Source: Methanomicrobiales archaeon (GTDB taxonomy: Archaea > Halobacteriota > Methanomicrobia > Methanomicrobiales > Methanospirillaceae). Taken from it: a DNA stretch of 54,630 bases. Where the stretch lies: contig JAPKXQ010000056.1 of assembly GCA_026394765.1 (NCBI GenBank), positions 1 to 54,630 of the forward strand, written 5' to 3'. The position numbers and the translations under genes are program-made. Of the stretch, positions 4,693 through 42,201 are shown in pieces. Under the pieces are notes generated by a model. It saw nothing but the letters and a program-made list of their open reading frames with translations. It ran no database searches and was not told where the DNA came from. Position 1 is the first letter of the stretch; every line of letters starts with the position of its first letter.

Positions 4693-6900
4693 TTAAAAGT
4701 CCGCTAGAGAAGCGTCATTACTGGCGCTTTTCTTTCCTTTTCTCTTTTTCTTTATGGGTGCCAGAGCGGGATCATCACTCACCTCCAGGGAAGGGTCCTT
4801 TCTCGCATGGAATGTCCTCTCGCCCTTTGTGAGGTGTTCGAGGAGCGGGCCTGCCACTCCGGAGCCTAGGATACCAGACAGACGGGAGAGCCCTGCTCCC
4901 TTCAACGCTTCTGGTGTGGAAAGGCCGTTGTTATAGAGGCGACGGGCCCGCACCCTGCCGATGTTAGGCAGGCGCACTAATGGAAGGAGTTCTCTCCTGA
5001 CACCATACTTCATACAGAGCTCAAGGTCCCTTACGAGGGGATAGAAAGAAGGCCTGAAGATCCTCGTGAGCTGCACGGTAGCATGGAGGAGCCAGTTCAT
5101 CACATCCACCATTGCGAAGATGTCCCCGGGTCCGGTAGAGAACCTCTCACAGAGTATCTTCTCCTCTACTTCACTGGACCATTCTGAGAGTAGCATGGCA
5201 GTCTTTAAACCCCGGAAGTAGCACTCCTCATCGTCAGTAAGATCTACCCAGAGTTTGTCCCCTTCACTGATCAGGAACTTCTCAAGATACGCGCTGTCTC
5301 TATTGCTCACATAGAGTCGGAACATGTCGGGGGTGACACAGATGAGGTGGATGAGAGCGATATCAGAATACTCCTCTCCAGCACGGATGTTGCTCACAAT
5401 GAGATCCGCACCCCAGGGATCGAGGTAGAGCTGTGAGACGAGAGAGCCATACTCTGTGGGAGCAGTGGTTTCCCCCTGGCATGTGATCATCCCTACCCGC
5501 TCAAGAAATACAAGGATATTGTCCAGGATCCGTGGGAGGAGGCGTGCATTCTTGTGCTGGTGGGAATAGAAGGTCTTTTCGAGGAACCTTAAGATCTCAT
5601 CCCTTGTGGTGGCAAAGCCAGAGGTAATGAGAGAGAGAATATGCGTTCTCAGCGCAACCTCATTGGCGCACTGGGAGTTGACGTCTTCGGCCGGGGCGTT
5701 GATATAGCACTCGAATAGGAGATCAGAGCGGTCTCCATCTTTTGCGATGAGTACTGCCTCACCATAGGGATCAAGGCGTGGCCGTCCTGCCCGCCCGGCC
5801 ATCTGGCGGTATTCCCGCACCGGTATTGGGACCATCCCCTCTCCGGCAGAGAACCTGAGGTAGTCCCTTATGATCACCCGCCTGGCCGGGAGGTTTAAGC
5901 CCGCAGCAAGGGTCGGGGTGGATGCAATACAGAGGATATGGCCATTCCTGAAACCTTCTTCCACAAGCGAACGCTCATCACGCTTCAACCCGGCGTGGTG
6001 GAATGCAGCACCCTTCTCGATGCACGCCGCGAGGGTCTTTCCCATTTCAGTTTCGGCCTGCGCTGCGATGCGGGTTGCGAGTGAGGTGAGTTCATGACTA
6101 TCCCGTTTTAATGCAGTAGCCATCCTCTTGGCGAAAGCCTCTGCATTCTTGCGCGAAGAGACAAAGACAAGGCACTGGCCTCCTTCATGCACCGTGTCGA
6201 GGCAGATGTTGGTATCATCGAACCGGGTTGTTGCCTCAATCTTTCGTGTAGTCCCATCGAACTGGATCCTGCCATTCCAAAAGACCCCCTCACGGAGGTC
6301 AACTGGGCGCCATGTGCTGGTGACCGCCGACCCATCGAGCCATCCTGCGAGGCTTCCAGGGTTTCCAATCGTCGCGCTCAGTCCTATCACCTGGACCTTG
6401 GGGTTTTTATACCGCAACTTTGTGATGACCATCTCAAGGGTCACCCCACGTCCAGGGTCGTCTATCAGGTGTACCTCGTCCACTACGAGAAGTGATATCG
6501 CATTAATCCAGGGTGCTGCATTCCGGATGAGAGAATCTACTTTCTCTGAGGTGGCAACGATAATGTCCTGATTCCCTAAGTACTCGTCCCTCCTGTCATA
6601 GTCCCCGGTTGCAATCCCCACCTTGATACCCTTCTTTCCAAATTCTTCGTGTTTCTCACTTGCCAGTGCTTTTAAGGGGACAATATAGAGGCATTTTCCT
6701 CCTCGGGCGACATGCTGATGCATCGCCATCTCTGCGACCAGTGTTTTGCCACTAGCAGTCGGGATCGAGACCAGAAGGTTCTTCCCCTCAAATAGCCCCT
6801 TTGAGATGCACTCGACCTGTGGTGGGTAGAGTGACTGTATACTGGCTTTTTCGTAGTGTGCCTTGAGGTATGCCGGGATCGGGAGGTCAGTGATATCCAT
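4693..6900 (-). CDS. hel308: ATP-dependent DNA helicase Hel308
   Basis: This is a 735-residue superfamily 2 helicase. In order: Q-motif LYPPQ (24-28), Walker A PTASGKT (47-53), DEVH box (141-144), SAT (175-177), the conserved [19 protein letters not shown], and motif [11 protein letters not shown] (366-374). The ratchet and C-terminal helix-hairpin-helix region ([18 protein letters not shown]) follow. Hel308 unwinds lagging strands at stalled forks and is the archaeal relative of human HELQ and POLQ helicases. The C-terminus ends in a lysine-rich tail (KKKRKGKK). Length and motifs are complete. A TATA-like box lies about 40 nt upstream and GGGG directly before the ATG. Confidence 0.95.
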
Positions 6901-6936
6901 TTGACCCCTTTATTTCCATTCGAAGATACCAGAAAA

Positions 6937-6950
6937 ATATGATATATTAA
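6937..6950 (-). promoter_or_regulatory. Putative TATA box for hel308
   Basis: On the minus strand the block reads TTAATATATCATAT, an archaeal TATA-like element about 40 nt upstream of the hel308 ATG at 6900. The short leader carries AAAGGGG before the start. The rest of 6901-7212 holds only a 77-codon minus-strand frame of no recognisable family, which I did not call. Confidence 0.45.
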
Positions 6951-7212
6951 TTTCTAAGCAATGATACCGGAATTATTATTCCAATAGAAATACCGCATGC
7001 TGAACTGAATTACTGGTGGTGGCGTGTCCCACTACAACCATCCCGAACTTCTCCATTAGCCCTTTTCTTAGGCGCCAGGATGGAAACAGTTTTACTTTCG
7101 TCATGCTCATTGGCGGTATCGTAGAGTGTCGTTCAGATTGATAAGGATATATCACCTTTGTGATTGCCTCCCGTATCCGAGATATACTGGTCTCATGTCT
7201 TCTCTGCACTCT

Positions 7213-7752
7213 TCAATAATAGTAACTGATCATGTCCTCCTTACTCTGCCGCTTCTTCTTCTCCAGGAATGAAAAGACAGTCTCATGGGGGACTCCTTTG
7301 ATGATCATCTCGATCGCTGCTCGTGCAGTCTTGATCTGCTCAGGGAGACCTATGAGTGCGATGGTCTTACCAAAGACTGATACCTGGGTCTGCGTGAGGC
7401 GTTCTATCTGTTCCCGTGCAGAACCGTCCTTTCCAATGATCCTGCCCCTCAGTCGGTCGAGCTGACGGGGGGTCTCGGCGGCGTGCGAGAGGTCTATCAC
7501 ATCGAGGAGGAGGTCCTCATCGTCTAGGAGGTCAAACGCCCGTTCCGGGGAGAAACCACGGTTAATTGCAGTGACTACATCGACGGTCCTCAGCACAGAC
7601 TGTGCATCTTCGCCACTGACGTCTACGGATCCTTCCTCACTGTCGATGGTGATACTGGTCTTTGTCCTCTCTTCAAGGGCTTTCTTGGTGATACCACTCT
7701 TTCCGATAAGGACGCCAATACGGTCCCCGGTGATCCTGGTCTCCTGAATCAT
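7213..7752 (-). CDS. KH-domain RNA-binding protein (archaeal Pno1/Dim2-like)
   Basis: The protein has 179 residues and two KH modules. The first is near residues 8-60 with GVLIGKSGITKKALE, a GxxG loop. The second is near 95-150 with GRIIGKDGSAREQIE (GKDG). The arrangement matches the archaeal relative of eukaryotic Krr1 and Pno1/Dim2, which act in small-subunit ribosome maturation. Its start overlaps the end of rio1 by 4 bases (ATGA), so the two are translationally coupled. Linkage of RIO1 and this KH protein is widespread in archaea and supports a joint ribosome-biogenesis role. Confidence 0.9.
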   Translation of the reverse strand: MIQETRITGDRIGVLIGKSGITKKALEERTKTSITIDSEEGSVDVSGEDAQSVLRTVDVVTAINRGFSPERAFDLLDDEDLLLDVIDLSHAAETPRQLDRLRGRIIGKDGSAREQIERLTQTQVSVFGKTIALIGLPEQIKTARAAIEMIIKGVPHETVFSFLEKKKRQSKEDMISYYY

Positions 7753-8564
7753 CTGTTCTCCTCCTCACGGTTCATGTCTTTTCCCCCCGGCATGAGGTTC
7801 TCCAGGGGTATTCCGGTGATCGCTGAAAGTGTCTGATTTGCATCACGCACATCGCAGAACTGTGAAAAGAAGCGGTTTATGTTCATGATATCCCTCCTAA
7901 GGAATCGTATGGCCTCAGGGTGGTCAGGTGTGACCGACTGGCCCATATCAATGAGGTGGGGCTTCTCCCCCATTAAGATATTGTACTCACTCAGGTCGCC
8001 ATGAACAAGGTGTGCAACCTGGTAGAGCACGCGGATGTCCTCTATGATCTGGTCATAGACCGCTGCAGGGTCGTTCAAAGGTACCAGGCGGAGCTGAGGG
8101 TATGCCTGGTCTCCGATCCCAAGGAATTCCATGATCAGTATATTGCGGTCCCATACCAGCGGCGTCGGAACGAGGAGTCCAGCATCACGGGCTCTTGTAA
8201 GGTTTGAATACTCTTTTCTCGTCCATGCAAAGACGATCTCTTTGCGCGTCTTCCTGACCCTGGAGAACCTACGGTCTCCAGTGATATACTTGCCCATGGC
8301 AGTGAAATCGGCAGTACGGATCCGGTATATCTTTACCGCTACGGTGCAGTTATCCCGTGTCCCTAGATATACGTTTGCTTCCTTTCCTGTTGAGAGTGGC
8401 CCGCCCATAGCGGTGAGCTTCTTTTTATGAATAAGATGGTAGAGGGTGAGGAGAGTTATCTCATCAAAGACGTCATCCCTCACCTTTCTCTGATCGCCAT
8501 CTCGAACGCGGACCCCTAACTGCTCGATCTCACGGTCGAAATCTTCTTCGTGGTGTTTTCCCAT
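7749..8564 (-). CDS. rio1: RIO1-type serine protein kinase
   Basis: The protein has 271 residues. The nucleotide loop GGPLSTGKEANVY (54-66) is characteristic of RIO1. K78 is the ATP lysine, HGDLSEYNIL (188-197) holds the catalytic aspartate D190, and LIDMGQSV (204-211) holds the metal aspartate D206. RIO1 acts as an ATPase/kinase in late 40S or 30S maturation. The start has GGTGA just upstream. Gene order gap-tyrS-rio1-KH has gaps of 38 bp, 23 bp and a 4-bp overlap, suggesting a shared transcript. Confidence 0.95.
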   Translation of the reverse strand: MGKHHEEDFDREIEQLGVRVRDGDQRKVRDDVFDEITLLTLYHLIHKKKLTAMGGPLSTGKEANVYLGTRDNCTVAVKIYRIRTADFTAMGKYITGDRRFSRVRKTRKEIVFAWTRKEYSNLTRARDAGLLVPTPLVWDRNILIMEFLGIGDQAYPQLRLVPLNDPAAVYDQIIEDIRVLYQVAHLVHGDLSEYNILMGEKPHLIDMGQSVTPDHPEAIRFLRRDIMNINRFFSQFCDVRDANQTLSAITGIPLENLMPGGKDMNREEENR

Positions 8565-8587
8565 GGGTCACCGGAGTTGTGCGGGAT

Positions 8588-9529
8588 TCACCCGACATAG
8601 TCCCGCACAGGAGCAAGGATTTCGATAAGGTACCTCGCGGCCGTCTTTTTAAGGTCAAGTGGGTGGACCTCCTTTGCAAGGTATGCCACTTCAAGGTCCC
8701 CGTACGTGAAGAACTCACGCGGTCCACCAAACTTCTCTGACCGTGCGAGCTGCACGCTGCTGACCCGGGGGAAGATATGGTACTGCAGGATCTGAAAGAT
8801 GGGGTTCCCGGTTGTCTCGGGTGGGCAGAACGCCTTCTCACACTTCTTCATGATGACGTCCTCCTCATCTGCCACTGATATGTAGTTTCCACTGGAAGAC
8901 GACATCTTCTTACCGTCCATGCCATTCAGAATGGGAGTATGGATGCAGACCGGGGGGGTTACCCCGATCGCGGCGAGGTGTTCGCGGGCGAGCATGTGGA
9001 TCTTTCTCTGATCTACCCCCCCGACTGCCGCATGGACGTCCAGTGTTGCGATATCGACCATCTGCATGATGGGGTAGATCATCTGTGAGACCATAGGGTT
9101 CTCCATCTGCCTTCCGACCTCGTCCATGCTCCGCTTGGCCCTATTGAGGGTGATCTGTTGAGAGAGCTCAAGAACCTTCATCTGGTAATCCGGGTTGAGC
9201 TGGAGATCTGAACCAAGGACATACCTCACTCCAGAGAGACCAAGTCCCTCGAAACACCGGCGGTTATACTTCGCGAGATCCCGTACCTCATCCATAGACC
9301 CCTTGCGATTGAGGAATGCGTGGAGGTCAGCGAGGAGCACGGTAATAGAGAACCCAGCCTCTGAAAGGTCGATCAGCTTGTTCACCGTGACCAGATGGCC
9401 GAGGTGGATCTCCCCACTCGGCTCATACCCTGCATAGACCCGGGGCTCACGGGTCTTGAGGAGTGCCACCAGTTCCTCATCTGTGACGACTTCCACGAGA
9501 TTGCGGGTTGCGAGCGTGAAAGGATCCAT
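8588..9529 (-). CDS. tyrS: Tyrosyl-tRNA synthetase
   Basis: This is a 313-residue class I synthetase of the short archaeal/eukaryotic type. The HIGH equivalent is HLGH (42-45) in GEIHLGHLVT, and the KMSKS equivalent is KMSSS (208-212). The tyrosine-pocket motif YAGYEPSGE lies at 32-40. It lacks a bacterial S4 domain, as expected for archaea. It charges tRNA-Tyr in the cytoplasm. It sits 38 bp downstream of gap and 23 bp upstream of rio1 on the same strand. Confidence 0.95.
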   Translation of the reverse strand: MDPFTLATRNLVEVVTDEELVALLKTREPRVYAGYEPSGEIHLGHLVTVNKLIDLSEAGFSITVLLADLHAFLNRKGSMDEVRDLAKYNRRCFEGLGLSGVRYVLGSDLQLNPDYQMKVLELSQQITLNRAKRSMDEVGRQMENPMVSQMIYPIMQMVDIATLDVHAAVGGVDQRKIHMLAREHLAAIGVTPPVCIHTPILNGMDGKKMSSSSGNYISVADEEDVIMKKCEKAFCPPETTGNPIFQILQYHIFPRVSSVQLARSEKFGGPREFFTYGDLEVAYLAKEVHPLDLKKTAARYLIEILAPVRDYVG

Positions 9530-9567
9530 GGGGATGTAATGGGAGGTTTCGTGGGTTAATGGTTCTT

Positions 9568-10587
9568 CTATATCGCCTGGAAGTGCAGTGCCTGATTTGT
9601 CATCCTGATCGAAGTATCAGGGTCTTTCTCCACTCCTGTCATGGCCCGGATGGCATCGACGTTCTCTACCACGACATCGGCTTCCTGGTGAATGGCCTGG
9701 AAGAGGTAGAGCTCGTTCCCATCGCATGCGACAGAGTCCTCAAATATGCCGTTCTCCCAGAGGTCTGAACGTGGGCGGCCGAGGTCCATCACGAACTCTT
9801 TCAGCTCTGCGGTACTGGTGATCCCGCTCGTCCTGGGAACAAGGCCCATACGCGGGTGCTTCCTGATGATCTCAATGACCCTCTCCCGTGCAGGAGCTGA
9901 CACCAAGTCCATCTGGATAGCATGCATGTGCATGAGGGTGGTGGGGACGATCATAGCGAGTGTGACTATGGAGATATTGGGGAGTACTGTCTGGACATCA
10001 GGGCCATGGTGACTGGGAATGGATACAGGGTTAAGGACGATTGCATCGATCGGCCCCTTCTTTATCTCTCCTGGATCTGCACCGCGCCGCACCATCACTG
10101 CCCTTACTTTGACGACTCCATACTCCCGGTCCATTGCCTTGATGATACGGCACAGGCCGGTGGTATTGCAGGAGACTACCCTGACAAACTGCCTTCCGAT
10201 GGCATCCTTGAAGTTGCAGTCCGAGTTGAATGAGAATCCTGCAACCTCGTGCTCCTCTCCTCCTTGAAAAATTGCTTTGACACCCGCCTTTTCATAGAGA
10301 ATCCGGTTTTTTGCACCCGTGTCTCCCGGTGTCGCATCCACGATTAGATCTGCTCTCTTGATCATATCCTCGATTGTTCCTGCAACAGCGATACCGGCCT
10401 TCTCGAATGCTCCCTTCTTTGCAGGGTCAGCGATGAAGAGGGGGAATCCACGGTTCATTGCTATGCTTGCATCAGCGTTAGGTCGTGTCTTTGAGACTCC
10501 GACGATCTGCATATCGGGCTGAGCAGCGACTGCATCGGCCACACGCTTGCCGATGGTGCCATACCCGTTAACTGCAACCTTGATCAT
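9568..10587 (-). CDS. gap: Type II glyceraldehyde-3-phosphate dehydrogenase (phosphorylating)
   Basis: The protein is 339 residues from the chosen start MIKVAVNGYGTIGKRV. The open frame extends 41 codons further upstream, but all archaeal GAPDHs begin at this Rossmann strand, and a possible TATA-like GTTAATACG about 25-30 nt upstream would give a nearly leaderless mRNA. The catalytic cysteine is C140 in SCNTTGL. FNSDCNF and the C-terminal region FEDSVACDGNELYLFQA are typical of the archaeal type. It interconverts glyceraldehyde-3-phosphate and 1,3-bisphosphoglycerate, mainly gluconeogenic in methanogens. It diverges from the PAS fragment at 10636. Confidence 0.95.
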   Translation of the reverse strand: MIKVAVNGYGTIGKRVADAVAAQPDMQIVGVSKTRPNADASIAMNRGFPLFIADPAKKGAFEKAGIAVAGTIEDMIKRADLIVDATPGDTGAKNRILYEKAGVKAIFQGGEEHEVAGFSFNSDCNFKDAIGRQFVRVVSCNTTGLCRIIKAMDREYGVVKVRAVMVRRGADPGEIKKGPIDAIVLNPVSIPSHHGPDVQTVLPNISIVTLAMIVPTTLMHMHAIQMDLVSAPARERVIEIIRKHPRMGLVPRTSGITSTAELKEFVMDLGRPRSDLWENGIFEDSVACDGNELYLFQAIHQEADVVVENVDAIRAMTGVEKDPDTSIRMTNQALHFQAI

Positions 10588-33267: not shown

Positions 33268-34242
33268 ATGACCCTCGAGGAGACCGTGGTTGCGATAAGG
33301 GGAATGGAGGTACGGGGCGCCGGGCGTATTGCCCGTCTGGCAGTGGAAGCGCTCTGCTCTCATGCCGCCGCCCAGGAGACTTATGATCTTGCTTCATTCA
33401 GGTGTGCTATGGAGCAAGCTGCAAGGACCCTTATTGCGACAAGGCCGACCGCAGTCTCGCTTCCCAATGCGGTCCATGTCGTGATGGCAGCCATGAGGAG
33501 AGCAACAACAGTACCTGAAGCTAAGACTCGTATCCATGATGAGGGATCGGCATTCCTATCAGCTTCACGGGAGGCTGTTAAGAAGATCGGAGAGATCGGG
33601 GCCAGGCACATCAGGGACGGGGACGTCCTTCTCACCCACTGCAACTCAGAGGCCGCTCTTGCCTGTATCATCGCAGCTCACCGCGAGGGGAAGCGGATCG
33701 AAGTATATGCCACCGAGGTGCGGCCAAGGGGCCAGGGCCTCCTCACGATCACCGCGCTGAATGCCGAGGGGATCAGGACCAACTATATCGTGGACTCTGC
33801 TGTGCGGTTCTTCATGCAGAAGGTCGACCTCGTGGTGGTGGGAGCCGATGCCGTTGCAGTGAACGGTGCGGTGGTGAACAAGATTGGGACCTCCCAGATC
33901 GCCCTCACCGCACATGAGACACGAACAAGTGTGATGGTCGCAGCCGAGACCTACAAGTTTGCTCCCAGGACGATCTTTGGAGAACAGATAGCGATTGAGG
34001 AGCGGGACGGCGAAGAGGTCCTCGCAGGAGAGATCTCCAGGACACTACCCCATGTGACGGTGAGGAACCCCTCCTTTGATGTTACCCCGGCTGAGTATAT
34101 TGATCTGATCGTGACTGAAGTGGGGGCGATCCCACCCCAGATGGCTTACCTCGTCATCAGGGACCACTTGGGATGGGAGATAGGGGCATTATCAGGGAAG
34201 ACCTGGCCGCCCCTTGTCGGATGTGAGGGGAGATCCGAATGA
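33268..34242 (+). CDS. Ribose-1,5-bisphosphate isomerase
   Basis: The 324-residue protein of the eIF2B-alpha-like family has LLTHCNSEAAL with catalytic C125 and VVVGADAVAVNG with D194, the Cys/Asp pair known from the archaeal enzyme. EVYATEVRPRGQG (145-157) and NKIGTSQIAL also match. It converts ribose-1,5-bisphosphate to ribulose-1,5-bisphosphate, the substrate of the RuBisCO encoded next. The stop overlaps the RuBisCO ATG by 4 bases (ATGA). A translation-initiation-factor paralogue is the main alternative, but the coupling to RuBisCO makes the isomerase assignment strong. Confidence 0.95.
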   Translation: MTLEETVVAIRGMEVRGAGRIARLAVEALCSHAAAQETYDLASFRCAMEQAARTLIATRPTAVSLPNAVHVVMAAMRRATTVPEAKTRIHDEGSAFLSASREAVKKIGEIGARHIRDGDVLLTHCNSEAALACIIAAHREGKRIEVYATEVRPRGQGLLTITALNAEGIRTNYIVDSAVRFFMQKVDLVVVGADAVAVNGAVVNKIGTSQIALTAHETRTSVMVAAETYKFAPRTIFGEQIAIEERDGEEVLAGEISRTLPHVTVRNPSFDVTPAEYIDLIVTEVGAIPPQMAYLVIRDHLGWEIGALSGKTWPPLVGCEGRSE

Positions 34243-35438
34243 AAGATGTGGTGGCGACATACTACTTCAGGCCCCGGGGGGACACCTCCCCGGCGCAGGC
34301 CGCGGTGGCCATATGTGAGGAGGAGACGACCGGTACATGGACCGGGATCGGGACCAGGCAGGAGTATGTGAAGCGGCTCGATGGGAGTGTCGAGGCTGTT
34401 GAAGCCTGTGGCGAGGGATACACCACAAAGATCCATTACCCTTCGGAGATCTTTGAGGTAGGTAACGTGGCCCAGTACCTATCGGTCATCGCGGGAAACC
34501 TCTTTGGCCTCGCAAGGCTCCAGAGTGTCCGTCTGCTCGACATCGATTTCCCTGATGAACTTGTGCCTTTTCGGGGGCCGAAGTTCGGGATCTCAGGGAT
34601 CCGTCACCTTGTTGGCACTACGAAACGGCCCCATGTAGGTACTATCATAAAGCCTAAGGTAGGTCTTGACCCGGGCGACACGGCCGCAGTCGCTTATGAA
34701 GCGGCGATTGGGGGGATTGATCTGATCAAGGACGACGAGACTCTAACTGACCAGCCCTTCTGTCCTATCAGGGAACGCGTCCCGGCGGTGATGGCGCAGC
34801 TCGATGACGCGAAGGCCGAGACCGGGCAGCAGGTCCTCTATGCGGTCAATGTCACCACGCGGGCAGACCGGATCGTGGAGCGTGCAAAAGAGGCGATAGG
34901 TCTTGGGGCGAACATGGTGATGGTTGATGTGATAACCTCAGGGTTTTCGGCACTCGAGGCACTAGCATCGGACCCATCCATCAAAGTACCGATTCATGTC
35001 CACCGGACGATGCATGCCGCACTCACGCGAGACCCCTTCCATGGCATCGCGATGCGGCCTATTGCCCGCCTCGTCCGGATGCTAGGGGGTGACCAGCTCC
35101 ATACCGGGACAGTATCAGGGAAGATGAGCCACTCTGCCGATGAGGTCAGGGGTGACAACGCCGCCCTAATGGCGTCGTTTTATGGGATTAAGCGGACGTT
35201 TCCTGTCGCGAGCGGGGGGCTCCATCCTGGAAAGGTGGCAAAGGAGCTTGCCACTCTCGGTACCGACATCATACTTCAGGCAGGAGGAGGCGTTCATGGT
35301 CACCCGGGTGGCACCGCATCAGGGGCCCGTGCGATGCGACAGGCAGTGGACGCCTTCTTAGAAGGAATCCCGCCTGAAGAGTATGCCCGGGACCACCGCG
35401 AGCTCGCCCAGGCCCTCGAGAGGTGGGGCTTAGGTTGA
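34239..35438 (+). CDS. rbcL: Form III ribulose-1,5-bisphosphate carboxylase/oxygenase
   Basis: The protein is 399 residues, short at the N-terminus compared with plant enzymes but with a full catalytic set: K138/K140 in TIIKPKVGL, carbamylated K164 with D166 and E167 in DLIKDDE, H255 in HVHRTMH, H288 in HTGTVSGK, loop-6 K295 and S325 in ASGGLHPG. It fixes CO2 onto RuBP giving two 3-phosphoglycerate. In archaea it works in AMP/nucleoside salvage or, with phosphoribulokinase, in the reductive hexulose-phosphate pathway described in Methanospirillum. The co-translated isomerase points to R15P-derived RuBP. Confidence 0.96.
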   Translation: MKDVVATYYFRPRGDTSPAQAAVAICEEETTGTWTGIGTRQEYVKRLDGSVEAVEACGEGYTTKIHYPSEIFEVGNVAQYLSVIAGNLFGLARLQSVRLLDIDFPDELVPFRGPKFGISGIRHLVGTTKRPHVGTIIKPKVGLDPGDTAAVAYEAAIGGIDLIKDDETLTDQPFCPIRERVPAVMAQLDDAKAETGQQVLYAVNVTTRADRIVERAKEAIGLGANMVMVDVITSGFSALEALASDPSIKVPIHVHRTMHAALTRDPFHGIAMRPIARLVRMLGGDQLHTGTVSGKMSHSADEVRGDNAALMASFYGIKRTFPVASGGLHPGKVAKELATLGTDIILQAGGGVHGHPGGTASGARAMRQAVDAFLEGIPPEEYARDHRELAQALERWGLG

Positions 35439-35466: not shown

Positions 35467-36515
35467 ATGGGACCTCGCAGGCAAAGTGCGGCCATAAAAT
35501 AAACCTATTCGTCCGAGGGGCGCTCCTCATCTCCTCAATTACGCTCATCTTACTTGCTGGCTCTGCAGTGTGTCAGCAATGGGGCCTTGCTACGATCCAG
35601 CCACCTCCCATCATCTTGAGTGTCCCTTTCGTCCCTACCCCGGTAACTGGGGACGAGGCAGACCACCTCGCCTATGATATCGAGGCGACTGGTCTCCAGA
35701 GGTCAGGGTACCGTCCTGTCTGCCTTGAAGTTCTCTCCTGGATCTCTGCCAGGGGGACTCTATCATCGGCTTATCCTCGTTGAAGAGGCATTTCTATGGC
35801 GAATGACTGCTGTTTCAGGAGCGTTCATTGATCCTGGCCAGGGTTTTCCCATTTCGATAGGTCCTCTGTTCCGGGGCTCCGTGTGGCTTGTCACTGAGAC
35901 GAGTGGCCCTGCGACCCACCACTTCAAGAGCCAGATCACTTATAGAGGATCTATGAGGGTCCCCCAGAGGTTCGCGTCCGACTGGAGCCGGGTGGATGAG
36001 TCTGGTTCCCGGTAGCAAGGCAGTGGCCTTGTCAATGAGACTGGCACTGCTATGGTGAGGAACTCCTCGCAGTGAAGGACGGCACTGTGGTAGCTACAAT
36101 GGATGGGATCTCTGATAACCCCCGGGTAGGGGAGATACGGGACCTCTCCATCGACGAGCTAGGGATGAACCAGGTCCTCCTGGAGGTGGCAAATGGAACA
36201 TATGCGTGCTATGCACACCTGCTGCCTGGGAGTGTGCAGGTGATGGCAGGTGATTACGTGAAGGGAGGGGATGTGGTGGGCAGCATAGGGAACTCAGATG
36301 CACCACACCTCCACTTCCAGGTCTGTGATGCGCCTGACCTCCTGGGGTCCGAGGGACTTCCGTTTGTGTTCCAGGGATTTGAGGAGACCGGGAGGTGTAT
36401 AGTGAACACCTATACCGGGAGGTTTACGTGTGTCACTTTCGATTCAGTCCGCCTGCATGAGGGGGAGATACCCGAGAACAACCGTATCATTCGTTTTCCA
36501 GAGATCCATGAATAA
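35467..36515 (+). pseudogene. Broken M23-family metallopeptidase
   Basis: Pieces of one secreted peptidase gene are spread over all reading frames. They are a start MGPRRQSAAIK (35467); a signal-like stretch FVRGALLISSITLILLAG with VPFVPTPVTGDEADHLAYDI (frame of 35568); RGSVWLVTETSGPATHHFKS and PQRFASDWSRVDESG (frame of 35674); then WHCYGEELLAVKDGTVVATM, YACYAHLLPGSVQV and NSDAPHLHFQV (frame of 36072). YAHL and HLHF are M23/LytM metal-site motifs. At least three frameshifts and stops separate the pieces, so no full enzyme can be made; the last 147 codons remain open. It follows rbcL by about 30 bp. Confidence 0.8.
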
Positions 36516-36575: not shown

Positions 36576-37166
36576 TCAGTCAGAGAACTCTACCCGTGAT
36601 GACTCGCCGGGTGCCACGTCACTGTAGATGTAGAGTGTCCGGTATAAATAGGGCACCCGGTAGTACCCTGCATAGCCTGAAACACCAACACGTGCAATGT
36701 CATTGTCACCATTGTACCTTGATTTCCACCGCACGAGTGACTTCATTGTTCTATAGGGATAGATCTTCCGCCAGTCACTGTTGTAACCATGGTTCTCATA
36801 ATACCAGTCTGTATAGAGATAGCCATAGTTGGGACCCCCATAATAGCCGAGATCCGTGATGTATAGTGTCTGCCCGGGTCTCAAATGAGCTGTCGCAGTT
36901 CTTGTGTTCCACTTCAAAGTCTGACCGTTCGCAATTTTTAATGTCGTGGTATACAGATACACATATGCCTCGGGAGAAGGGCCAATGCTCTCTGCCATGA
37001 TCGTTCCATCGCCCATCGTGGCAATGATCTGCGCGGCATCGGCAGGGTCGGGGAAGTTAACAGACCAGTCCTTCCATTTTGGAGAGACGGGTGCTGCGAG
37101 GGCAGGTACGGCTAGGACCGTGAGGACAAGGAGTGCAACTACCACTCCAAATGCAACTTTTCGCAT
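36576..37166 (-). CDS. Secreted protein of unknown function
   Basis: The 196-residue protein has a clear signal peptide (MRKVAFGVVVALLVLTVLAV, cleaved near ALAAP). The mature part is rich in Tyr and aromatic residues with repeated short motifs (LYTTTLKI, LYITDLGYYGG, LYTDWYY, YLYRTLYIYSD), suggesting a beta-strand surface domain. No family was recognised. The start is secure: on the minus strand AGGAGGT (complement at 37175-37181) lies 8 nt before the ATG. The neighbouring envelope genes suggest an exported structural or adhesive role, but that is only inference. Confidence 0.75.
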   Translation of the reverse strand: MRKVAFGVVVALLVLTVLAVPALAAPVSPKWKDWSVNFPDPADAAQIIATMGDGTIMAESIGPSPEAYVYLYTTTLKIANGQTLKWNTRTATAHLRPGQTLYITDLGYYGGPNYGYLYTDWYYENHGYNSDWRKIYPYRTMKSLVRWKSRYNGDNDIARVGVSGYAGYYRVPYLYRTLYIYSDVAPGESSRVEFSD

Positions 37167-37638: not shown

Positions 37639-38682
37639 ATGAAAGATAACTCCATATGTAGAAACATTATCCTTGTTTTGTTCATTAATTTCATCCTTAT
37701 TTATCCCTTGAGTGCCGCGTCTCTTTTATCTACCTCCCCTGTAGAAGATTGTAATGCGTGTTGCAGCGGGGTCGAAGGGGCAGTGGAACGAGTCTCCCCA
37801 GAGGTTGCAGCTGCTGACCTCGCACGGATCAATTCGGTCATACAGGAGGAGGGCCTCGCATGGGTTGCTGGTGAAACCTCAGTCTCAGACCTGACCTCTA
37901 CATCATTCCAGCGTTTATTGGGCGATAGGAGCAGCACCATCTTACTCCCTCAGTATGCAAATGATGCGGGTGCGGTGGTAAAGATCGATGCGCTCCCCGC
38001 CTCATTCGACTGGAGGTACCATAATGGCGACTATACGACGCCAGTCCGTGACCAGAAGAACTGCGGGAGCTGCTGGGCGTTTGCCGCAACAGCGGTCTTT
38101 GAGTCCTATACAGAGATATCGAAGAGGAGGCCGGGATATAACCCGGACTTCGCAGAGCAGTACCTCCTCTCATGCAACCGTGAAGGGATGAGCTGCAACG
38201 GGGGCAGCGTACTCGTGCTCGCATACTTCGTGGACAAGGCTGGAAAGACAGGTGGGGTTGGTACGGTAGTCGAGCGTGCATTCCCTTACCTTGCGGCAGA
38301 TGGAAGGTGCAAGCAGTGGGGGGGCACGACTAGGTTTTCCGTGCCACAAAGGGGTGGATGGAACTGGCTCTACCGTCCGAACTCAGCGAAGATAAAAGAT
38401 CTCGTCTACACCTATGGCCCGGTATACGCGAATATGTACGTGGATGATGAGGGATTCTTTGCATACTATACGAGTGGCATCTTCGAGTACCCTGACACCC
38501 CTCGCGGAGAGACCAACCATGCCATCACCATCGTGGGATGGGGCCACGACGATACAAAAAACAGGGACTACTACATCGCAAAGAACAGCTGGGGTAAGTC
38601 CTGGGGTGAGAATGGGTGGTTTAAGATCTATGTCGATACCTGCAATATCGGGAATAATGTTGGGTACCTCAAGCGGCCCTGA
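37639..38682 (+). CDS. Secreted papain-family (C1A) cysteine peptidase
   Basis: The 347-residue preproenzyme has a signal peptide (about 1-27), a short propeptide (to about 118) with a CNACCSG cluster at 38-44, and a mature papain fold. The catalytic set is complete: Q139 (oxyanion), C145 in CGSCWAF, H294 in NHAITIVGWG, and N316 in AKNSWGKSWGENGW. It hydrolyses peptide bonds outside the cell. Papain-like enzymes are uncommon but present in some methanogens. It has C1A disulfide-type cysteines (LLSCN, MSCNGG). A double chagasin inhibitor is encoded 2.5 kb downstream on the same strand. Confidence 0.94.
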   Translation: MKDNSICRNIILVLFINFILIYPLSAASLLSTSPVEDCNACCSGVEGAVERVSPEVAAADLARINSVIQEEGLAWVAGETSVSDLTSTSFQRLLGDRSSTILLPQYANDAGAVVKIDALPASFDWRYHNGDYTTPVRDQKNCGSCWAFAATAVFESYTEISKRRPGYNPDFAEQYLLSCNREGMSCNGGSVLVLAYFVDKAGKTGGVGTVVERAFPYLAADGRCKQWGGTTRFSVPQRGGWNWLYRPNSAKIKDLVYTYGPVYANMYVDDEGFFAYYTSGIFEYPDTPRGETNHAITIVGWGHDDTKNRDYYIAKNSWGKSWGENGWFKIYVDTCNIGNNVGYLKRP

Positions 38683-38840
38683 CCTGGGGTTTGTAGTGGG
38701 ATGGTTCACCAGGGGGGAAGAATCCCTCTGTAAGCACTCAACCAAAAAGATCCCGGAAGGTCATGATATCCCTGGAGAATTAAACTATCTCCGGGCGATA
38801 ACCCACTGCTGTCCTTGGATGTTAACCGGGACCTCACCAG

Positions 38841-39227
38841 GTGCCGATGGTTGATCCTGGTATTGGGGCGTTCCCTTCACTCCTGGAGACCGGGTTCCCC
38901 TGGGTGGTCCATGGGTTCACCTTTGTCTTTGGGGTGGCGGGGGCAGCACTGATAATCTATGGGGGTCTCCATGCGGTCTGGTCCCTCCTCTTTGGAGAGG
39001 TGACCAACCGTCAGGGTGGGTACGCACGTATCAGGCGTGGGTTTACCGACCGTATCATCTTCGGCCTTGAGTTTTTCATCGCTGCTGACGTCCTCGCAAC
39101 AGTACTCGCCCCTTCACAGGAGGAGCTTATTGTGCTGGGGATGGTGGTTGTGATCCGTACGGTCCTGGGATATTTCCTTGCGAGGGAGGCGAGGGAGTAC
39201 CCCCTCATGGAGACGAAGGGGGAATAG
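38841..39227 (+). CDS. DUF1622 family membrane protein
   Basis: The 128-residue protein has three predicted membrane helices (about 20-45, 70-90, 95-115) with VTNRQGGYARIRRGFTDRII between the first two and LARE near the end, the DUF1622 pattern. Function is unknown; the family is widespread in archaea and bacteria. GTG 38841 is the longest start, but ATG 38847, with AGGTG just upstream, is equally likely. Converges with the lipoprotein gene (6-bp gap). Confidence 0.8.
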   Translation: MPMVDPGIGAFPSLLETGFPWVVHGFTFVFGVAGAALIIYGGLHAVWSLLFGEVTNRQGGYARIRRGFTDRIIFGLEFFIAADVLATVLAPSQEELIVLGMVVVIRTVLGYFLAREAREYPLMETKGE

Positions 39228-39233
39228 GAACGT

Positions 39234-40487
39234 TTATCGCTCTTCTGTCACGTTCCCGCATCCCATGGGGGTCGCAGCGCCAACGATGTACTGCACCCCG
39301 TCACTCCCGTTGACGAGGTGGTAGTAGGCCTTTTTAGTGGCCAGAGCCCGCTGGCCCCCGAGTGTATAGACATACTCGACCGTCCCTGACCCTTTCATGA
39401 GGGCCCCATCGACGATTTCATCTCTGAAGAGTGTACCATTCACGTCCGGCTTGCCCCGTAAGTTCATCCCAACGGTGCGTGGATTGTCTGCGTTTGCGAC
39501 GCTGTTCACCTGAGAGTCGAATACAAATATGTAGAGGTCGGGGTTGAGAGGATCGCGGTATGGTGCTTTTCCGGAGTTGATGGCTGAGATTGTACCCTGG
39601 GCATCCTTTTGGAATGCCCGTGCGGTCAGGTTGACGAGCCCTGCCACGGTCTCCATAGGGACAGGGTCCCCGCCGCATGAACTTCCGGCATAATGGTAGT
39701 AAATACGTTGGTACCGGCTTGTCCCACTGGCGTCGAGATCTTTTTTGACAGAATCAACCGCCTCCTGGAGGGCATATACGATGCTGGCTGGAGTTTCACG
39801 GTTCAGGGCGAGGTAATAGTCGTGGGTTGCGAAGCGGGACGCTATGGTGATATCGCCCGGATTTTGTGCATACCGACTGATGAGGGCCTTCCCCGGTTCT
39901 TCTGAATACGCGATCCCATCGATCTCACTCTTTTCCAGCATACGGACGAGAGTCGCGAAATCGGTCCTTGCAATGACCTGGTCGCTCCTCACCCCCTGAT
40001 CTTTAAGGTCAAGGCCTGCGATGTCGTCTTGCACCACCCCATATTTCAGGGAACTTATATCAAGTGCAGACCCGTTCGCATGCAACCATCCCTCCCGCAT
40101 AAAAATGACTGTTTCTGACTGGATTAACGGGCCCACCCAGACGAACAGGTCCTCTCGTGCCGGGGTCCTCGCAGTGGAGAAGACTGCGGTATAGGGGGAA
40201 ATCCGGGCGGACTGGTATGCTTCGGTCCATGTAGTGAGCCTGATCTTCTGATCAGGGTCACGTACCCCGGCGCTGCTGAGCGCTTCGGTGAGGACGTCCA
40301 CTGCAATGCCCCGCACCGACCCATTCTCTGCAAAGTTAAAGGGGGGATACTCCTCGGTGAGAAACGTTATGTTCTGGATTGACTTTGTGACGGGTGGTGT
40401 CGTTGGAGTCTGCCTGTCAGTGCATCCGGATAGCAGCAACACCACGATCAGCAGCCCAAAAGACATTACAACTACCTCTCTGTGCAT
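39234..40487 (-). CDS. Substrate-binding domain/Cache-domain lipoprotein
   Basis: The protein has 417 residues from ATG 40487, preceded by GGAGAGG; the open frame extends 30 codons further. It begins with a lipoprotein signal (LLSGC, C22). Residues about 40-265 form a type 2 periplasmic-binding fold (ITFLTEEYPPFNFAENGSVR, then GIAVDVLTEAL), as in amino-acid ABC receptors. From about 280 a Cache-like module follows (AFQKDAQGTISAINSGKAPY, LYIFVFDSQVNSVAN, GALMKGSGTVEYVY). No permease genes are adjacent, so it may be a free-standing sensor or receptor rather than a transporter part. The Cache-lipoprotein at 53850 resembles its C-terminal half. Confidence 0.8.
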   Translation of the reverse strand: MHREVVVMSFGLLIVVLLLSGCTDRQTPTTPPVTKSIQNITFLTEEYPPFNFAENGSVRGIAVDVLTEALSSAGVRDPDQKIRLTTWTEAYQSARISPYTAVFSTARTPAREDLFVWVGPLIQSETVIFMREGWLHANGSALDISSLKYGVVQDDIAGLDLKDQGVRSDQVIARTDFATLVRMLEKSEIDGIAYSEEPGKALISRYAQNPGDITIASRFATHDYYLALNRETPASIVYALQEAVDSVKKDLDASGTSRYQRIYYHYAGSSCGGDPVPMETVAGLVNLTARAFQKDAQGTISAINSGKAPYRDPLNPDLYIFVFDSQVNSVANADNPRTVGMNLRGKPDVNGTLFRDEIVDGALMKGSGTVEYVYTLGGQRALATKKAYYHLVNGSDGVQYIVGAATPMGCGNVTEER

Positions 40488-40980
40488 CAGTATTCCTCTC
40501 CAGGAACGGTGGGCATGAGAGGGGATATAGATCTCCTGCACCCTGGGATAAGGGGCGGTAGAACAATTTTGCAGCATGCAGAATAAGATTGTTCATAGAT
40601 CACCGGTAAAAAGTGTTCATTCATTAGATACCTGCCTGGGAGTGGATCCTGGGTCAGGCCCTACCTCGATGCCTTCACCCATCAGTTCCCTGGAGGGATT
40701 ATCGAACACCCCTTTCTCATGCTAGACGGCGCTATCCGCTTGAAATAATGGATAGAAGGCGCGATCTTTAATTTGGGAATACCTTAGAGTACCCTTCGGT
40801 GGGCAGGGAGATCACCAGGCGGAAACAATTCGAGGTCTTTGGAGGTCTTCTCATGCAGAAGATCTTTTTGATTCTCATCTTGTATGCGGTTTTACCTACG
40901 GAACCCCACCTCTCCATTATCTGAATCATCTCATCCGGGCGGTATGGGCGATTCAACAGTCAATTACGTGGGTGATTGGG
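40488..40980. other. Non-coding stretch with degraded sequence
   Basis: About 490 bp between the Cache lipoprotein and the kinase remnant. Open frames are short and look unrelated to known proteins. It may be eroded coding DNA. Confidence 0.4.
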
Positions 40981-40986
40981 TGGGTG

Positions 40987-41080
40987 CCCCAAAAGATGAG
41001 GAAGAGAAGATATTCATGCGGGGGTATCGGAGGAACACTGACATAAGATATTTTCTTTGCCCGTGAGGCTCTCTCAATCA
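40987..41080 (+). pseudogene. Histidine-kinase ATPase-domain remnant
   Basis: The frame reads APKDEEEKIFMRGYRRNTD, and after a one-base shift FFAREALSIT. This matches the lid region of methanogen sensor kinases, as in the decayed kinase at 46800-46900 (ESDKEKVFDRGYGKNTGFG, then FLVREIFAIT). Only about 30 codons remain; the rest of the gene is not recognisable. Confidence 0.65.
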
Positions 41081-41199
41081 CATGACCACACCTCCATGAG
41101 ACCGGGGAGTCTGAAACTGTGGTCATGTTCAGGATCAGGATTAGCCTGGGGGTAATCTATAACTACTTAAAAAGATATTCCCCTTTTATGCAAGGTGGC

Positions 41200-42201
41200 A
41201 TGATAAAGGTATCTCTCCTCTTTATGGGGTTTTTAATACTCATTGGGACCTGTAGCGGGGTGATACCCAGTAATCCTGGATATTCTACAATGGGAGACCC
41301 CAAATTCGGTGGAGTCTCTCCCACGTTGGTCCCCGATTCTTTGGTGATGGGAACGGGTGTGTGGAGGGACTCTTCCGTGTCGTTCAGGCGGGTCGCGACA
41401 TGGTCCATGGCCCATCCCTTTATGGGTGAATCATCCGATATCGGGTGGGATCAAAGGGCCTGGCAGTATTGCGGTGATGAACCGGGTCAGGATATTGAGG
41501 AAGCGCGCACACGGGGGGATGAAAAAAGTAGTATATCCATAGAAGGGGTCACGGAAGCTGAAGTCCTCCCACCTGTACTCCCTGACAACAGCACCCTCAC
41601 TATGAGGCTCGGCGATCAGGATGTCATCCTGGTCGCCCTGGAGGAGAATCCCTCGAATGGGTATTTCTGGAACGCGACGGTGAGCGAGGGCCTTGCAATT
41701 GTTAACACCACTCTTATCGAGAACCCTGCCGATGCAGGAGGCAAAGGTGCCGGAGGTCTGCGGGTCTGGAGTATACGACCACTCCGTGTGGGAAACGAGA
41801 CATTTCACGCGGTGTATGCGCGGGAGTGGGAACCCACCGGGGGAGGTCTCACCTATACCCTCTATGTCGAGGTTACTGGGATGCGGTTTAGTGAGAGGGA
41901 GAATGGGGAGACGGTGAGGGTCACCCTCGGATCCCAGGAACTCATCATAGTCGATCTGGTCGAGAACCCATCAACCGGGTACAGCTGGGGGACCTTCATC
42001 ACTCAGGGCCTTGAGGTGGTGAACAACTCCTATCTCCAAGACGTCGGAACAGAGGGACTGAGTGGGGCCGATGGGGTGAGAGAGTGGACCCTCAAGGCAC
42101 TCATTCTGGGGAACCAGAGTTTCTCTGCAGTTTACCGTCGTCCCTGGGACCACCAGGGAGTAGGGGCATCACGCTACTCACTTTATATCCTGGTAGAGTA
42201 G
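41200..42201 (+). CDS. Secreted protein with two chagasin-type (I42) inhibitor domains
   Basis: The protein has 333 residues from ATG 41200 (AGGTGG before it, signal peptide MIKVSLLFMGFLILIGTCSG); the frame is open 27 codons further upstream. Two I42 domains follow a spacer. Domain 1 has NPSNGYFW (150-157), GAGGLRVW and REW; domain 2 has NPSTGYSW (256-263), GADGVREW and RRPW. These are the three loops by which chagasin plugs the active site of papain-like peptidases. It is exported, as is the C1 peptidase at 37639, its obvious candidate target. Most I42 proteins have one domain. The 100-residue N-terminal spacer has no recognised fold. Confidence 0.92.
   Translation: MIKVSLLFMGFLILIGTCSGVIPSNPGYSTMGDPKFGGVSPTLVPDSLVMGTGVWRDSSVSFRRVATWSMAHPFMGESSDIGWDQRAWQYCGDEPGQDIEEARTRGDEKSSISIEGVTEAEVLPPVLPDNSTLTMRLGDQDVILVALEENPSNGYFWNATVSEGLAIVNTTLIENPADAGGKGAGGLRVWSIRPLRVGNETFHAVYAREWEPTGGGLTYTLYVEVTGMRFSERENGETVRVTLGSQELIIVDLVENPSTGYSWGTFITQGLEVVNNSYLQDVGTEGLSGADGVREWTLKALILGNQSFSAVYRRPWDHQGVGASRYSLYILVE

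Follow-up and report, generated by a model that had tools for sequence, protein, structure and literature searches.

Proximity of a secreted papain-like peptidase and a two-domain chagasin in a methanogen is most likely coincidental

The window analysed here is a 54,630-nucleotide contig (C23) from the 1.83 Mb genome (107 contigs, 79% complete) of a Methanomicrobiales archaeon that groups with the Methanoregulaceae. On its forward strand, about 2.5 kb apart, lie genes for a papain-family (C1A) cysteine peptidase and for an inhibitor of the chagasin family (I42), both ordinary members of two known families. That they lie close together is most likely a coincidence: we put at roughly 0.7 the probability that these are two independent, ordinary secreted proteins, with a general envelope chagasin that happens to be encoded near a C1A peptidase. 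The first-pass annotation had proposed a protease with its own inhibitor. What it said about the families and the export signals stands, and inhibition is possible in principle, but the dedicated pairing fails the test of adjacency among relatives and is weakly backed by co-occurrence.

The peptidase and the inhibitor

The peptidase gene (37639..38682, + strand) encodes a predicted secreted zymogen of 347 residues, recognised from its translation, a PDB match and a PF00112 match at residues 119-341 (E = 1.2e-47; 163 bits, cut-off 20.7); the best solved relative is cathepsin V (2e-33). The Gln-Cys-His-Asn set of family C1A is complete. The oxyanion Gln139 and the catalytic Cys145 lie in DQKNCGSCWAF (38053..38073, +), the catalytic His294 and Asn316 in NHAI and KNSWG (38518..38586, +), and all four are invariant across the 11 archaeal C1As aligned (the window protein and ten others), bearing out the earlier reading of a papain-like peptidase with a full catalytic set. 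A signal (about residues 1-27) is followed by a propeptide to about residue 118 and by the catalytic domain (119-341). Over 12 residues the N-terminus scores 3.35 for hydrophobicity, a strong value, and the SAA that ends the hydrophobic segment is a plausible signal peptidase site. The catalytic domain is preceded by the motif WVAGETSVSDLTSTSFQRLLG, variable forms of which occur in some other archaeal C1As in the alignment, and the segment that contains it is probably the propeptide. The protein resembles cathepsins L/V and cathepsin C in that its catalytic set is complete and it is laid out as a secreted zymogen, but it is archaeal and its propeptide is short and non-canonical; it would be exported as a papain-like zymogen with that short propeptide. 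Its closest paralogs in the same genome (G000) are two tandem C1A proteins of 660-670 residues on contig C33 (L059, 2866-7260).

The inhibitor gene (41200..42201, +) encodes a predicted secreted protein of 333 residues containing two stretches that match PF09394 (whole-protein E = 6.3e-37; 126 bits, cut-off 27.2). Translation most likely starts at ATG 41200 rather than GTG 41119, because that ATG is preceded by the ribosome-binding site AAGGTGG and, about 30 bases upstream, by the TATA-like TTAAAAAG, and because the protein read from it opens with the signal-like segment MIKVSLLFMGFLILIGTCSG. This N-terminal segment is strongly hydrophobic, as is that of the peptidase, so that the shared strand and paired export signals noted at first pass stand.

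The first I42 domain occupies 41578..41868 (+; HMM domain 154-250 of the 360-residue open reading frame) and the second 41890..42189 (+; HMM domain 258-357). In domain 1, loop L2 reads NPSNGY (41647-41664), L4 GAGG (41746-41757) and L6 REW (41821-41829); in domain 2 they read NPSTGY (41965-41982), GADG (42064-42075) and RPW (42139-42147), all on the + strand. Measured against the canonical NPTTG, GxGG and RPW, most loop residues are kept in each domain, but neither carries the full set, domain 1 having REW for RPW and domain 2 GADG for GxGG. The claim of two complete sets of chagasin loops was therefore overstated, since both domains deviate from the NPTTGY / GxGG / R[PS]W consensus of most I42 relatives in the alignment.

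These departures raise the question of whether one or both domains have lost inhibition, leaving a binding or structural protein of the envelope. Besides the REW and NPSNGY of domain 1 and the GADG of domain 2, this reading draws on the long branches of the two domains (1.55 and 1.32, in a tree built from a short alignment) and on the finding that mutation of the TT of NPTTG weakens the Pseudomonas chagasin Cip1 (PMC5014320). It is nevertheless improbable: the majority of loop residues survive in each domain, domain 2 retains both NPSTGY and RPW, serine for threonine in L2 is seen in relatives, and REW also occurs in a chagasin encoded in an operon-like pair with a C1A gene (L040, below).

The identification as a double chagasin is secure, resting on the two PF09394 domains and on matches to solved chagasins by sequence as well as by predicted fold. 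In the AlphaFold model pLDDT is about 75-96 across most of the two beta domains, which have the Ig-like chagasin fold, and Foldseek aligns the model with EhICP2, Amebosin (EhICP1) and chagasin at target TM-scores of 0.80-0.86 (2nqd_A, 3m88_A). Residues 1-124 have pLDDT below 50 and are predicted to be disordered; searches of 101 relatives with the N-terminal region (query residues 1-114) gave no match and no ortholog. The window protein thus shares the Ig-like beta domain and the L2/L4/L6 motifs with Trypanosoma cruzi chagasin and the Entamoeba amoebiasins EhICP1/2, but differs from them in its two domains, signal peptide, long disordered N-terminus, and REW and GADG loops.

The two-domain architecture had been considered less usual, which proved wrong: members of this order often encode chagasins of this kind. 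A single open frame holding two or three I42 matches is present in at least 14 other relatives, and two I42 domains occur in 7 of 80 named archaeal loci. A chagasin from the Methanoregulaceae (UBA467, L071) has the same layout as that of the window, one genome encodes three I42 domains in a single protein (G067), and another has two adjacent genes that each specify a two-domain I42 protein (G013). Other methanogen chagasin domains, assigned by eye, are apparently fused to a fasciclin domain (L091, 9083-10321) or a TolB-like beta-propeller (L153, 3733-5028), or accompanied by apparent PEGA-like repeats (L156, 2546-3631, and L158) or PKD-like domains (L155, 5160-6410, and L157). No C1A-I42 fusion was seen among the chagasin fusions inspected.

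Gene neighbourhood and the odds of proximity

Two genes lie between the peptidase and the chagasin. The first encodes a DUF1622 membrane protein (38841..39227, +; PF07784, 2e-22). The second, on the opposite strand (39234..40577, -), encodes a predicted lipoprotein that combines a family 3 solute-binding domain (SBP_bac_3, PF00497) with an sCache domain (PF17200). This opposite-strand gene rules out an operon, and makes it very unlikely that the peptidase and chagasin genes share one transcription unit. Elsewhere in the window, a short M23-peptidase open reading frame (36072-36515, +) adjoins a gene for an exported protein of 196 residues without a family match (36576-37166, -), and at 33268-35438 an IF-2B-family gene, probably for ribose-1,5-bisphosphate isomerase, is directly followed by a gene for a RuBisCO large subunit that is probably of form III, of the AMP pathway.

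The genome carries six C1A domains; its I42 domains number three and are shared between two genes. With these numbers, random placement would leave at least one C1A no more than 2.4 kb from an I42 gene with a probability of about 0.03, or 0.016 for the same strand, and since the pair was chosen after inspection of the window, the figure of about 3% is weak evidence. The contigs bearing the genome's other C1A domains have no I42.

Comparison with relatives covered 101 genomes drawn from the organism's own family and order, the window's own included. I42 is present in 86 of these and C1A in 76; 69 have both, 17 I42 only, 7 C1A only and 8 neither. Genomes with one of the two families tend to have the other as well (odds ratio 4.6, Fisher p = 0.01, in a test that ignores kinship), so that co-occurrence, one of the checks suggested at first pass, is found, but weakly, given the I42-only and C1A-only genomes. 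Adjacency, the other check, is not. Among the matches listed, which may leave out weak ones, pairs within 3.5 kb occur in 3 of the 101 genomes (the window's, G074 and G041) where about 1.2 are expected, roughly the frequency that chance would give. When 84,980 species genomes were scanned with an archaeal I42 profile, the 80 named loci emerged, nearly all from methanogens, and no C1A was found in the flanks of any (0/80; up to 10 kb on each side, as the contig allowed). A conserved C1A-I42 neighbourhood is therefore rejected.

These results bear most directly on the proposal that the two proteins form a cognate pair specific to this lineage, in which the two-domain chagasin would act outside the cell as a regulator dedicated to the neighbouring C1A and shield the cell surface from it. 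The common strand, the short distance and the export signals on both proteins are compatible with such a pair, as are the role of protozoan chagasins as endogenous regulators (PMC7863939) and the positive association of the two families across genomes. The window species also has no near relative within the set compared, which leaves room for a pairing peculiar to its lineage. We nonetheless consider the proposal unlikely in view of the opposite-strand gene in between, the 80 I42 loci without an adjacent C1A, and the absence of I42 from the contigs that carry the genome's other C1A domains. Closeness by itself is no reason to pick the neighbouring C1A as the target of the chagasin.

C1A-chagasin gene pairs in other archaea

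True C1A-chagasin gene pairs do occur in other archaea, which speaks for a cognate pair in the window, but those found use signal-less C1As and a different clade of chagasins, which speaks against it. They came to light in a stratified look at C1A loci, prompted by C1A-adjoining I42 genes in two genomes (G074 and G125). In six loci from several archaeal families (L174, L175, L186, L199, L201 and L040) the gene for a signal-less C1A precedes, on the same strand, one for a single-domain chagasin. Where the C1A is compact, the chagasin gene starts 59 bp after it in L174 (G275, 6679-8314), adjoins it in L175 (G311, 6831-8416), follows by 38 bp in L186 (G580, 1187-2767; the C1A frame is broken), overlaps its stop in L201 (G464, 1127-2325) and lies 782 bp after it in L199 (G518, 117-2421; the chagasin N-terminus is hydrophobic). 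The chagasin start is ambiguous in L174 and L186, and so is the location of these two proteins. In L040 (G074, judged to be Methanoculleus sediminis; 8058-10065) a protein of 163 residues is encoded between C1A and chagasin (8469-8960); it has no match in Pfam, and its C-terminal segment (IGLWAINEDRNAWVHIQGLGW..) is common to the neighbouring C1A. In G125 (L167, 7567-8971) the genes for a weak C1A of 307 residues and for a chagasin converge, with about 20 bp between them.

Five operon-type pairs were seen in 30 loci, three of them from one genus, where about 0.01 would be expected by chance, and the arrangement looks like an endogenous protease-antidote unit. In a tree that is rough because the alignment is short, the six operon-type chagasins group together in a single clade (support 98/83) that excludes all other archaeal chagasins sampled; both window domains fall outside it, within the secreted-chagasin part. 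The flanks of a further eight compact secreted C1As (L042, L044, L045, L046, L172, L173, L176 and L177) proved free of I42. Although the operon-type pairs draw on the same two families as the window, they are operon-like and combine a signal-less C1A with a single-domain chagasin of a separate clade; the window pair belongs with the compact secreted C1As.

The role of exported methanogen chagasins

Chagasins bind tightly to papain-like proteases and inhibit them broadly, by means of three loops (PMC7863939). The literature searched says almost nothing about how archaea use chagasins. A precedent comes from bacteria: Pseudomonas secretes chagasins although most Pseudomonas genomes lack a C1A, and Cip1 inhibits foreign C1As (PMC5014320). 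The window chagasin is similarly a secreted prokaryotic I42 protein from a group whose genomes often lack a C1A, but Cip1 is single-domain, has canonical NPTTG/GxGG/RPW loops and is proven by experiment, whereas the window protein is known from sequence and a model.

With independent proteins as the preferred reading, we infer from these comparisons that the window chagasin, which is exported and belongs among the envelope chagasins of methanogens, most likely inhibits papain-like proteases outside the cell. There it would act with two inhibitory modules, each I42 domain using L2, L4 and L6, by homology, to plug the active-site cleft of such a protease. Its target would be any accessible extracellular C1A, own or foreign, rather than specifically its neighbour. 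Because chagasins inhibit C1As broadly, an interaction between the two window proteins could well occur if both are present in the same compartment.

That I42 is retained without an endogenous C1A is indicated by the Methanoculleus family, where 26 of 26 good genomes have I42 and 4 of 26 have C1A. A tentative extension, possible but short of even odds in our judgement, is that methanogen chagasins form two functional groups: exported shields against foreign papain-like proteases, which would include the window protein and often have several domains or a fused surface module, and a second, distinct clade whose genes sit beside those of signal-less C1As and would form endogenous protease-antidote pairs with them. 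Real C1A-chagasin gene pairs exist elsewhere within the same archaeal phylum, and exported methanogen chagasins persist in genomes without any C1A (17 of the 86 that have I42), which makes foreign targets testable.
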